Source: an uncultured SAR86 cluster bacterium
GTDB lineage: Bacteria; Pseudomonadota; Gammaproteobacteria; Magnimaribacterales; AG-339-G14
Assembly: GCA_902528485.1 (NCBI GenBank)
Contig: CABZTA010000005.1
Coordinates: forward strand, 1-40,638
DNA length: 40,638 bases
Direction: 5' to 3'
Shown: positions 36,896 to 40,638 of the stretch, one piece after another
Layout of the letters: every line of letters starts with the position of its first letter
How positions within the stretch are numbered: the stretch's first letter is position 1
Notes under the pieces: generated by a model
Told to the model about the DNA's origin: nothing
Databases searched by the model: none
Seen by the model: the letters and a program-made list of their open reading frames with translations, nothing else
Made by a program: the position numbers and the translations under genes

Positions 36896-38179
36896 ATGGA
36901 TTTAAAGGAATTAGCAAGTAAAGCAATCAATGATGAATTAGATCTTCAGTTTGAACATCATCCTGTACATGCATTTATTAATGGTTCAACTGAAATTAAT
37001 GAAAATCTTCTTGCGTTTAAGGGTATAGCCGGTTTTTATGTCTTGGATACAGGGAATGGATTGGTTTTACTTGATACGGGCAGCATCCTAGATGTCGATA
37101 GAGCGTTTGAGGATATAAGAAATTGGAGACCCGATGCACCTTTAAAAGCAGCTATCTATACCCATCATCATGTGGATCATGTATTTGCAGTTGAAAAATT
37201 TGATCATGAGGCTGGTTCATTAAATAGAGATAGGCCTATTGTCTATGCTCATAAATTACTTCCTGATCACTTTGATAGGTACAAGAAAACTCTTGGATGG
37301 AACACTGCAATAAACAGAAGACAGTTTGCTATCAACGTTCCTCAGTTTAGTTGGCCCGATAGTTACAGATATCCCGATATCCTTGTTGATGAAAAGATGA
37401 GCTTTAAAGTTGGTGAAACTGAATTTTTTTTAAATCCTGCTAGAGGGGAAACTGATGATCACTTATGGGCTTACATTCCTCAAGAAAAAATCCTTCTTCC
37501 AGGTGATTTATTTATTTGGGCTGTGCCGAATGGAGGAAATCCCCAAAAAGTTCAAAGATATATATCGGATTGGGCTACTGCATTGAGAGAGATGGCTGAA
37601 CTTAATGTTGAAATCATGTTGCCCGGACACGGTTATCCCATGTTTGGTACTGAAATTATAAACAAAGCGCTAGAGACAACAGCAACCTTTCTCGATGACA
37701 TAGAGGAACAAGTACTTTCATTCATGAATAGAGGTAAAACATTGGACTTCGTAATCCATAATGTGAAATTCGATACAGTCGCTATGAAATTACCTTGGTT
37801 GAAACCAGTCTACGACGATCCGCAGTTTTTAATTAGAATGATTTGGCGAAGGTATGGAGGCTGGTGGGATGGAGAATACGATAGATTGTTTCCGACTCCA
37901 AGATCAGAGGAGGCAAAAAAATGGCTTGAGCTAGTTGGTTCTTTGGATAAGATTATTGATGAAGCACTGATTGAATCAGAGGCTGGAAATCACAACATTG
38001 CAGCGCATCTTATTGAAACAGCTCTTCATGCTAATCCTGATTCGGAAAAAGTGCATAGTGCTCGTATAAAAATATTCTCTTCTTTCTCAAAGATTCAATC
38101 ATCTTCTATGGGAAGGAATATTTTAAACCATGCTTCACTAGCAAGCTTAGAGTTGAAAAGAGATTTAGCGGAAGATTAA
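36896..38179 (+). CDS. MBL-fold hydrolase, alkylsulfatase-like with dimerization domain
   Basis: 427 aa; 'YTHHHVDHVFAVE', 'ARGETDDHLWAYIPQEKILLPGDLFIW', 'LPGHGYPMFG', followed by alkylsulfatase dimerization-like helices. Confidence 0.85.
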   Translation: MDLKELASKAINDELDLQFEHHPVHAFINGSTEINENLLAFKGIAGFYVLDTGNGLVLLDTGSILDVDRAFEDIRNWRPDAPLKAAIYTHHHVDHVFAVEKFDHEAGSLNRDRPIVYAHKLLPDHFDRYKKTLGWNTAINRRQFAINVPQFSWPDSYRYPDILVDEKMSFKVGETEFFLNPARGETDDHLWAYIPQEKILLPGDLFIWAVPNGGNPQKVQRYISDWATALREMAELNVEIMLPGHGYPMFGTEIINKALETTATFLDDIEEQVLSFMNRGKTLDFVIHNVKFDTVAMKLPWLKPVYDDPQFLIRMIWRRYGGWWDGEYDRLFPTPRSEEAKKWLELVGSLDKIIDEALIESEAGNHNIAAHLIETALHANPDSEKVHSARIKIFSSFSKIQSSSMGRNILNHASLASLELKRDLAED

Positions 38180-38319
38180 CATTCTCACAAAAATTTAAGG
38201 TCTCTCACAAACGTCATCAATAAAATTGTGAAATTTTTTTTAAACTGGATCTATTAGTATTAATTAATTGATTTATAAGTTAAATTAATTATTAGAGATA
38301 TTTAGAAAGGAGAGTAATA

Positions 38320-38727
38320 ATGACAAATCTAAAGTATTTAATTTCTGTAGTTATCTTAATGATATCGGGAATGTCTTTTTCACAAGATTCCTCTGCGCCG
38401 GTTCCAGCTGAAATGTGGCTTTGTGAGTTAAACGAGGGGTTTACTCTTGCTGATGTGAGACAAGTTTCTAAGGACGTGGAAGCGTTTTCAGAAAAAAATG
38501 GTATGAAAGGTGGCCAGTGGATCTTCACCACTTTTATGGGCGATATGAATCCAAATGGATTCGCCTTAATGACTGCTTGGCCTGACTTCACTGAGATGGG
38601 TGGTGGATTCCAAAATTTCTTTACCAATGGTGAAGGAGATAAAATTTTTTCAAGGTGGCTTAAGATTGCTAATTGTCCTACAAGATCATTAGTAATGATT
38701 GAAAATCCTTGGAGTAACATGGATTAA
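38320..38727 (+). CDS. exported single-domain protein of unknown function (135 aa)
   Basis: RBS 'aaaggagag', signal peptide MTNLKYLISVVILMISGMSFSQ, then one copy of a C...NGxGD...C domain shared with the next gene. Confidence 0.75.
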   Translation: MTNLKYLISVVILMISGMSFSQDSSAPVPAEMWLCELNEGFTLADVRQVSKDVEAFSEKNGMKGGQWIFTTFMGDMNPNGFALMTAWPDFTEMGGGFQNFFTNGEGDKIFSRWLKIANCPTRSLVMIENPWSNMD

Positions 38728-38751
38728 TAAATTTTTAATAAGGAGATAAAT

Positions 38752-39528
38752 ATGAAAAAAATATTAATAATCGTTGCCCTTTTAAGTTCCGGGGCAATAC
38801 TGGCACAAAGCATGCCTCCAACCTTCCCTGTTGAAATGTACTATGGTTGTTCCTATGAAAAAGGAAAAAACATTGAGGATATGATGGAAGTGGGTGCTGA
38901 ATGGAGAGAATGGCAAGAAGAAAATGATCCTGTTGGTTTAGAAAACTATAATGCATATATTTTCACAGCCGATTTCGCAGGTGCTTCAATTCACGGTAAA
39001 TCAATGTGGTTTGGTGTGGCTAACAGTTGGGAAAACTTTACAAAATCTCATTTCAACTGGGTTAGAAATGGATCTGGCGATATGTTGAAAAAGTTTGAAA
39101 GAGTTATGGGGCCATCGGATTGTATGGGTCACTTAATGGGAGTTATGTTTCCAACAAAACAGGCAGACGGATGGGAGCCTACTGATATTAGACCCGTGTT
39201 TACAGCATTATGTACCTCTAAAGAAAATGCTTCTATGATGGATTTTAATTCTGCTTATTCAAAAATGAATGCATTTCTGGATGCTGGAGGAATGGCAAAT
39301 AAAGTGGCTATGTTTAATATCTTTCCAGTTGCTGGTCAAACTACAGATTATGATTTTGCAACAATGATGGTGTTAGAAAGTGATGCTGCATTAGCAGAGC
39401 TAGCTGCATTGATGTCAACAGGCGGAGCTGCAATGCAAACTCAGTTATTTGAGCCACTTCAAGACTGCACTCAAAATTCTTTGATGTTATCTTCTGCATT
39501 ACCAGGTAATACAAATTGGAGTGAATAG
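38752..39528 (+). CDS. exported two-domain protein of unknown function (258 aa)
   Basis: RBS 'aaggagat', signal peptide MKKILIIVALLSSGAILAQ. Repeat 1 about 38809-39162 ('FPVEMYYGCSYEKG...NWVRNGSGDMLKKFERVMGPSDC'), repeat 2 about 39193-39495 ('PVFTALCTSKEN...LMSTGGAAMQTQLFEPLQDC'). Confidence 0.75.
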   Translation: MKKILIIVALLSSGAILAQSMPPTFPVEMYYGCSYEKGKNIEDMMEVGAEWREWQEENDPVGLENYNAYIFTADFAGASIHGKSMWFGVANSWENFTKSHFNWVRNGSGDMLKKFERVMGPSDCMGHLMGVMFPTKQADGWEPTDIRPVFTALCTSKENASMMDFNSAYSKMNAFLDAGGMANKVAMFNIFPVAGQTTDYDFATMMVLESDAALAELAALMSTGGAAMQTQLFEPLQDCTQNSLMLSSALPGNTNWSE

Positions 39529-39542
39529 ACCGTTCGTATCAT

Positions 39543-39572
39543 AAAAAAAGGAGCCTTTTGGCTCCTTTTTTT
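39543..39572. terminator. bidirectional rho-independent terminator
   Basis: aaaaaaaGGAGCC-tttt-GGCTCCttttttta between convergent genes. Confidence 0.9.
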
Positions 39573-40638
39573 ATTTTGTAAAGTTTTCTAATCTTACTAA
39601 AGAGTCTTCTTTTCCAATTAGAAATAATAATTCGCCTATGCTGGGCGCGTTGGACTTGCCGGTTAGAGCGTATCTCATCGGCTTACCAAGTTGGGGGAAT
39701 TTTATTTCTTTTGCTTTTATATAGGCCTTAATAAAAATATTTAAATCCTCAATATTGGAGTAATCCATTTCCTTAAATTGACTGATGAAGTCTAAAAGTA
39801 ATTCTCTATTTTCTTGGTTTCTGAGTTCATGATCAGCATCTATGATAGGTTTTTCTGTAAACATTAAAATTGATTGCTCAATTTCAACTAAAGTTTTAGC
39901 ACCTTTTTTTAAAACCTCAATAATCTCTAATATTCTAGGGGTGGCTGGATCAATTTTTTGATTTCCTTCATTTATTCTCTCTAGAATAGATTTATTTGAA
40001 GAATCTTTTAAGTACTCATTGTTATACCAATCTAAAAGTTGTTGTGAAAATTTTGAGGCAGAAGAATTTATATCTATTAGGTCAAAATATGATAACAATT
40101 CATCCATTGTGAATTTCTCAACCTCATCCTTAGACCAGCCTAATCTAACTATGTAATTTAGTAGCGCCTCGCTTAAATAGCCTTCAGATTTATAGTCCAT
40201 AATATCCAGAGCACCGTCTCTTTTTGACAGCCTTTTTCCTGATTCTGACAAGACCATAGGTAGATGAGCATAACTAGGAATGTTTCCATTAAGTGACTTA
40301 ATTATATTGAGTTGTTTAATTGTATTAGTAAGGTGATCGTCTCCTCGAATGACTGTTGAAATTTTCATATCTATATCATCTACCGCTGCACAAAAATTAT
40401 AAGTAGGAGTTCCATCGGCTCTCAAAATAATAAAATCATCTAATTCTTTATTATCTACCGTGATATCACCCAAAATTAAGTCTCTAAATGAAGTTGAAAC
40501 TGCAGGCATTTTATATCGAAGAACATTTTTTCCTTCGTATTCTAAATTTTTATCTCTGCTACGCCCGTCATACATGGGCTTTTGTTTATTTTTTATCTGA
40601 ACAGCACGAAGTTCTTCTAACTCCTCAATAGAACAATC
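39571..40638 (-). CDS. gltX: glutamyl-tRNA synthetase (partial, runs off the right edge)
   Basis: 'VSTVIRGDDHLTNT'-type segment, 'SESGKRLSKRDGA' (KMSKS equivalent). The frame stays open past the ORF-track start: DCSIEELEELRAVQIKNKQKP-MYDGR, so the true start lies outside the window. Confidence 0.95.
   Translation of the reverse strand, partial: DCSIEELEELRAVQIKNKQKPMYDGRSRDKNLEYEGKNVLRYKMPAVSTSFRDLILGDITVDNKELDDFIILRADGTPTYNFCAAVDDIDMKISTVIRGDDHLTNTIKQLNIIKSLNGNIPSYAHLPMVLSESGKRLSKRDGALDIMDYKSEGYLSEALLNYIVRLGWSKDEVEKFTMDELLSYFDLIDINSSASKFSQQLLDWYNNEYLKDSSNKSILERINEGNQKIDPATPRILEIIEVLKKGAKTLVEIEQSILMFTEKPIIDADHELRNQENRELLLDFISQFKEMDYSNIEDLNIFIKAYIKAKEIKFPQLGKPMRYALTGKSNAPSIGELLFLIGKEDSLVRLENFTK

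Follow-up and report, generated by a model that had tools for sequence, protein, structure and literature searches.

Two adjacent genes of an uncultured SAR86 bacterium, designated q1 and q2, raised the question of whether their products are built from one undescribed domain, present once in the first and twice in the second, and of what such proteins may do. The window (the whole stretch analyzed, 40,638 nt) corresponds to one entire contig (40.6 kb) from a draft genome of 0.89 Mb, whose nearest named relative is the SAR86 assembly AG-337-I17. SAR86 bacteria abound in the surface ocean, have very small genomes and are hard to culture. Both open reading frames (ORFs) were found where the first-pass annotation had placed them, separated by a gap of 24 bp. 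The features of the locus were as follows.

36896..38179, forward strand: metallo-beta-lactamase / alkyl-sulfatase-dimerisation protein, the upstream synteny partner (PF14863, 7.6e-21; PF00753, 1.6e-15).
38307..38312, forward strand: ribosome-binding site of q1, AAGGAG (from the sequence).
38320..38727, forward strand: q1, single-unit exported protein of 135 aa (ORF; orthologues in all same-genus loci).
38320..38382, forward strand: predicted signal peptide of q1, residues 1-21, putative cleavage at SFS/Q, without a lipobox (read from the sequence).
38422..38424, forward strand: Cys35 of q1, at the end of strand 1 (invariant in the single-unit alignment A2; strand 1 of the AlphaFold2 model covers mature residues 7-16).
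38674..38676, forward strand: Cys119 of q1, where strand 4 begins, predicted to form a disulfide with Cys35 (invariant in A2; strand 4 covers mature residues 96-106).
38740..38745, forward strand: ribosome-binding site of q2, AAGGAG (from the sequence).
38752..39528, forward strand: q2, two-unit exported protein of 258 aa (ORF and relatives).
38752..38805, forward strand: predicted signal peptide of q2, residues 1-18, putative cleavage at ILA/Q (hydropathy and sequence).
38827..39141, forward strand: N unit of q2, approximately residues 26-130, with Cys33 (38848-38850) and Cys124 (39121-39123) (alignment to q1).
39193..39501, forward strand: C unit of q2, approximately residues 148-250, with Cys154 (39211-39213) and Cys239 (39466-39468) (profile match to the N unit).
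39541..39574, bidirectional: intrinsic terminator between q2 and the convergent gltX (15-bp hairpin with A/T flanks).
39571..40638, reverse strand: gltX (glutamyl-tRNA synthetase), the convergent flank, truncated by the contig end (ORF; name read from its sequence).

The order metallo-beta-lactamase, q1, q2, gltX was kept in 11/11 same-genus loci, in agreement with the earlier view of q1 and q2 as a dedicated gene pair. An acyl-CoA dehydrogenase gene was also visible in the five longer of these loci. q1 and q2 were found adjacent only within the window's genus; in other lineages the two-unit form occurred alone or in arrays. Comparison with the nearest relative gave dN 0.009 and dS 0.18 for q1 (dN/dS about 0.05), and dN 0.005 and dS 0.29 for q2 (dN/dS about 0.02). 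Both genes are under strong purifying selection.

The N-termini of both proteins resembled signal peptides, and both proteins are probably exported, as had been proposed. The maximum hydropathy over 12 residues was 2.6 near the N-terminus (2.61 over residues 7-18 of q1 and 2.56 over residues 4-15 of q2) versus 1.0 and 1.4 elsewhere in the proteins. The strong ribosome-binding sites described before were present as AAGGAG in front of both genes. A promoter scan gave fewer sites than in shuffled sequence. The terminator was confirmed as a strong hairpin (-21 kcal/mol, z -7.1 on folding), but it is shared, serving gltX as well as q2. It was detected by folding and missed by the automatic terminator scan, probably since the T-tract is part of the stem.

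In BLASTP, q1 aligned with the N half of q2 (E 4e-9, 26%), but the N and C halves of q2 gave no pairwise alignment. This made the assignment of the C half, made by eye in the first-pass annotation, a weak claim. Relatives were therefore gathered and their profiles compared. The profiles of the two halves aligned at E 8e-18 over 106 columns. The single-unit profile, with the signal peptide removed, matched the N unit at 2.7e-28 and the C unit at 8.7e-16. As controls, six families unrelated to this one but from the same loci were compared, and none gave E below 0.03. These comparisons strongly supported the arrangement claimed, with q1 consisting of one copy, and q2 of two copies, of one domain of about 100 residues.

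An AlphaFold2 model of q1, run with 16 unit sequences, had a pLDDT of 83.8 and a pTM of 0.71. The order of its elements was beta-alpha-beta-beta-alpha-alpha-beta: strand 7-16, helix 22-38, strands 44-49 and 59-65, helices 69-81 and 85-95, and strand 96-106 (numbering of the mature protein). Foldseek comparison of this model with the PDB gave 15 matches at E <= 1e-3, the best at E 2e-4. PeHNL, SnoaB (TM 0.63/0.72) and PA0709 came first, followed closely by NIPSNAP-type proteins; 4-methylmuconolactone methylisomerase was also among the leading matches. Against viral proteins, nothing was obtained at E <= 0.001. The model thus supported for q1 the ferredoxin-like, dimeric alpha-beta-barrel (ABM-type) fold that had been suggested from the sequence.

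The model of full-length q2 was poor (pLDDT 46.5); at this low confidence, the elements followed a similar order in the two halves. The case for an internal pseudo-dimer in q2 therefore rests on homology.

Searches of Pfam and NCBIfam with q1, q2 and their halves, and of Pfam with 41 relatives, gave chance matches only. Searches of PDB sequences with two profiles gave none that was significant; Bacillus YjcS came top in one of them, at E 0.18. The q1/q2 family is therefore a new family of known fold, absent from Pfam and NCBIfam, as the description of the domain as undescribed had anticipated.

The cysteines were counted in 64 non-redundant two-unit proteins of below 70% identity. Both were present in 52 N units and neither in 12, and none had a single one. 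Among the C units, 59 had both in register and none had a single one; the remaining five also had both, out of the alignment register. In the family alignment A7, both C-unit cysteines were invariant, and the only invariant positions were the two cysteines and one glycine. A signal peptide together with the cysteine pair at strands 1 and 4 was found in q1, q2 and the 52 of 64 N units.

Strands 1 and 4 run antiparallel and side by side in a ferredoxin-like fold. With the first cysteine close to where strand 1 ends and the second where strand 4 begins, the two can pair. This, and the lack of any unit with a single cysteine, pointed to a disulfide between the two cysteines of each unit. The 12 cysteine-free N units largely belonged to one orthologous group, so the joint loss may have been a single event.

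The (N/T)GxG(D/A) sequence, previously put forward as a family motif, did not hold up; even in close relatives this position is occupied by GGEGD and NGA-D. The recurrent signature was instead E-x3/4-C ... G-K-D-x2-D ... W-x-G ... C. Conserved polar and aromatic positions of the N unit were E28, W51, Y66 and W86.

With a profile of 11 relatives, matches were found in 127/199 genomes of the SAR86 order, and with a deeper profile of 41 sequences in 37/40 high-quality ones. This strongly supported the near-universal presence of the family in the order. In an even sample of the class Gammaproteobacteria, one genome outside the order matched (G364, of family f164), and 39/61 genomes of this gammaproteobacterial family had a match. 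A sample of 299 Pseudomonadota genomes added one weak single-unit match. Beyond the SAR86 order and f164, the family is almost absent. A distant Pseudomonadota genome encodes a 123-aa exported single-unit relative (L132:1498-1866, E 8e-8) with the first cysteine shifted, which may hint at a wider reach of the family.

The two-unit form was the commonest, and one subgroup of it had lipoprotein-type signal peptides. Single-unit forms were q1 and, in two related genera of SAR86, proteins of 125 aa. A tree of 130 units placed 58 of the 59 C units in one clade (support 0.964) that contained no N or single units; the single units sided with the N units. The simplest reading would be one duplication before the split between SAR86 and f164.

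The genes beside the family varied with lineage. A chromosomal site conserved in the SAR86 family f2 holds tandem arrays of three to five two-unit paralogues that have diverged from each other (L054:6944-10784, L055:7694-11498, L056:6987-11513). They are flanked by genes for a MATE-type transporter and an acetyltransferase on one side, and for a fatty-acid desaturase, MsrB and MurJ on the other (the desaturase by a Pfam match, the rest read from sequence). In f164, the two-unit gene was directly downstream, on the same strand, of a TIGR01976 (VC1184-type) cysteine-desulfurase-like gene in 10/18 loci (L111:5830-7957, L112:6795-8930, L113, L115, L117-L119, L121, L126 and L127). In the SAR86 family f3, a conserved cluster (L136, L137, L142, L143, L060) contains an exported PHB-depolymerase-type esterase, a two-unit relative, an FAD aromatic-hydroxylase-like enzyme, malate synthase G and DUF1330. 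In the window's genus the neighbor is the alkyl-sulfatase-like protein, in which no signal peptide was seen and which looks cytosolic. With neighbors differing in this way, guilt by association is weak.

A second set of exported SAR86 proteins, designated family B (230-247 aa, at least two subfamilies), was found interspersed with or adjoining the q1/q2 family (L055:9246-9980, L056:7752-8450, L059:7488-8953, L060:4575-5279, L023:1926-2621). These proteins resemble the q1/q2 family in being exported, of similar size and apparently made of two repeated halves, but differ in that the cysteine pattern is mostly missing. They belong to no Pfam family and have a weak similarity to DUF6854. An initial hhalign match to the single-unit profile (E 2e-8) vanished on removal of the signal peptides, leaving E 0.002 and a probability of 12-16%.

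The homology of the three units, the predicted fold of q1, the all-or-none cysteines, the single duplication, the purifying selection and the near-universality in SAR86, each shown or strongly supported, are the ground for our interpretation. We interpreted q1 and q2 as exported, disulfide-closed barrels of the ABM type that bind, and possibly convert, a small ligand in the periplasm, with a probability of roughly 55%. Each unit of about 100 residues would be closed by one disulfide stapling strand 1 to strand 4. q1 is probably a homodimer. In q2, a tandem fusion, the N unit probably packs onto the C unit, so that each chain would be an internal pseudo-dimer with one closed barrel. The type-I signal peptides would place both proteins in the periplasm. 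The interior of the barrel may bind a small hydrophobic or amphipathic organic molecule, which would be either held or converted with no need for a cofactor. The diversified paralogues of the tandem arrays would then serve for different ligands. Ligand binding in the periplasm, with catalysis as a possibility, is the role that we favor and infer from the fold and setting.

An alternative, plausible yet rather unlikely in our estimate, is that these proteins are true periplasmic cofactor-free enzymes of the ABM type (oxygenases, isomerases or lyases), each paralogue having as its substrate a different small molecule that the cell takes up or that is released outside it. This would agree with the presence of an oxygenase (SnoaB), a hydroxynitrile lyase (PeHNL) and the methylisomerase among the best fold matches, with the four conserved N-unit residues, and with the aromatic-hydroxylase-like FAD enzyme and esterase adjoining the f3 relatives. 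On the other hand, identity to the fold-matched enzymes was 8-12% with no catalytic set matched, the invariant positions in A7 included no residue other than the cysteines and the glycine, and no pathway neighbor was constant across lineages.

Less probable still are structural or surface proteins, for example associated with vesicles or the outer membrane, in which the barrel is a scaffold and the paralogues diversified under pressure from phages or grazers. Export, the divergent tandem expansion in f2 and the subgroup with lipoprotein-type signal peptides would fit such a role, but the low dN/dS of the window copies (0.02-0.05) and a core pattern conserved across the order do not point to a fast-evolving surface antigen.

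Binding or degradation of heme, a known ligand of the ABM fold, would likewise suit the fold class. IsdG-type heme oxygenases use a catalytic histidine in an Asn-Trp-His triad, but q1 contains no histidine at all and none is conserved in A7, which made this reading very improbable.

That the units resemble each other merely through common signal peptides and composition would accord with the failure of the q2 halves to align pairwise, but was refuted by the profile comparisons, in which signal-free profiles aligned over about 100 columns at the E values given above, and by the single split in the tree that parted N from C units.

Returning to the periplasmic ligand-binding barrels, we consider it a tentative possibility that SAR86 maintains an expanded repertoire of its own of ABM-type barrels, exported and locked by disulfides, by which small organic molecules are captured or converted before the cell takes them up. 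To our knowledge, the ABM-type fold is otherwise known mainly from the cytosol. The streamlined SAR86 genomes retain a gene family unknown to Pfam and NCBIfam, and in one SAR86 family it has expanded to as many as five tandem copies. Periplasmic ligand-binding or catalytic barrels, if confirmed, would help to account for the range of dissolved molecules used by SAR86, a question that is hard to test in a lineage so difficult to culture. The proteins themselves are small, of one or two units, and probably easy to express, so that fold, disulfide and ligand are directly testable. A search of the SAR86 literature for ABM proteins, for expanded families of secreted proteins or for metaproteomic evidence returned nothing relevant.

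Several known systems have the fold class of q1. One is that of the IsdG/IsdI-type heme oxygenases. The SnoaB/ActVA-type proteins are cofactor-free oxygenases with anthrone-type substrates. DUF1330 (PF07045) and NIPSNAP proteins are also of this class, and the DUF1330 gene within the f3 cluster is cytosolic. DUF1330 showed neither an HMM match nor profile similarity to the q1/q2 family (hhalign E 0.3-0.4), and we know of no DUF1330 or NIPSNAP protein with a cysteine pair of the q1/q2 type.

The ABM proteins (PF03992) and the dimeric alpha-beta-barrel superfamily (SnoaB, PA0709/ArqI, YgiN, YjcS) resemble q1 in its predicted beta-alpha-beta-beta-alpha-beta fold. They include enzymes as well as members with non-catalytic roles (PMC6689052, PMC12274486). 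Neither PF03992 nor any other Pfam model matched q1, q2 or the 41 relatives above its cut-off, and for PF03992 this held even with E limits as permissive as 1 to 10. Unlike the PF03992 proteins, to which identity is at the same 8-12%, members of the q1/q2 family are exported and carry a cysteine pair in each unit. Like the ABM superfamily, the q1/q2 family has both single-unit and fused multi-domain forms.
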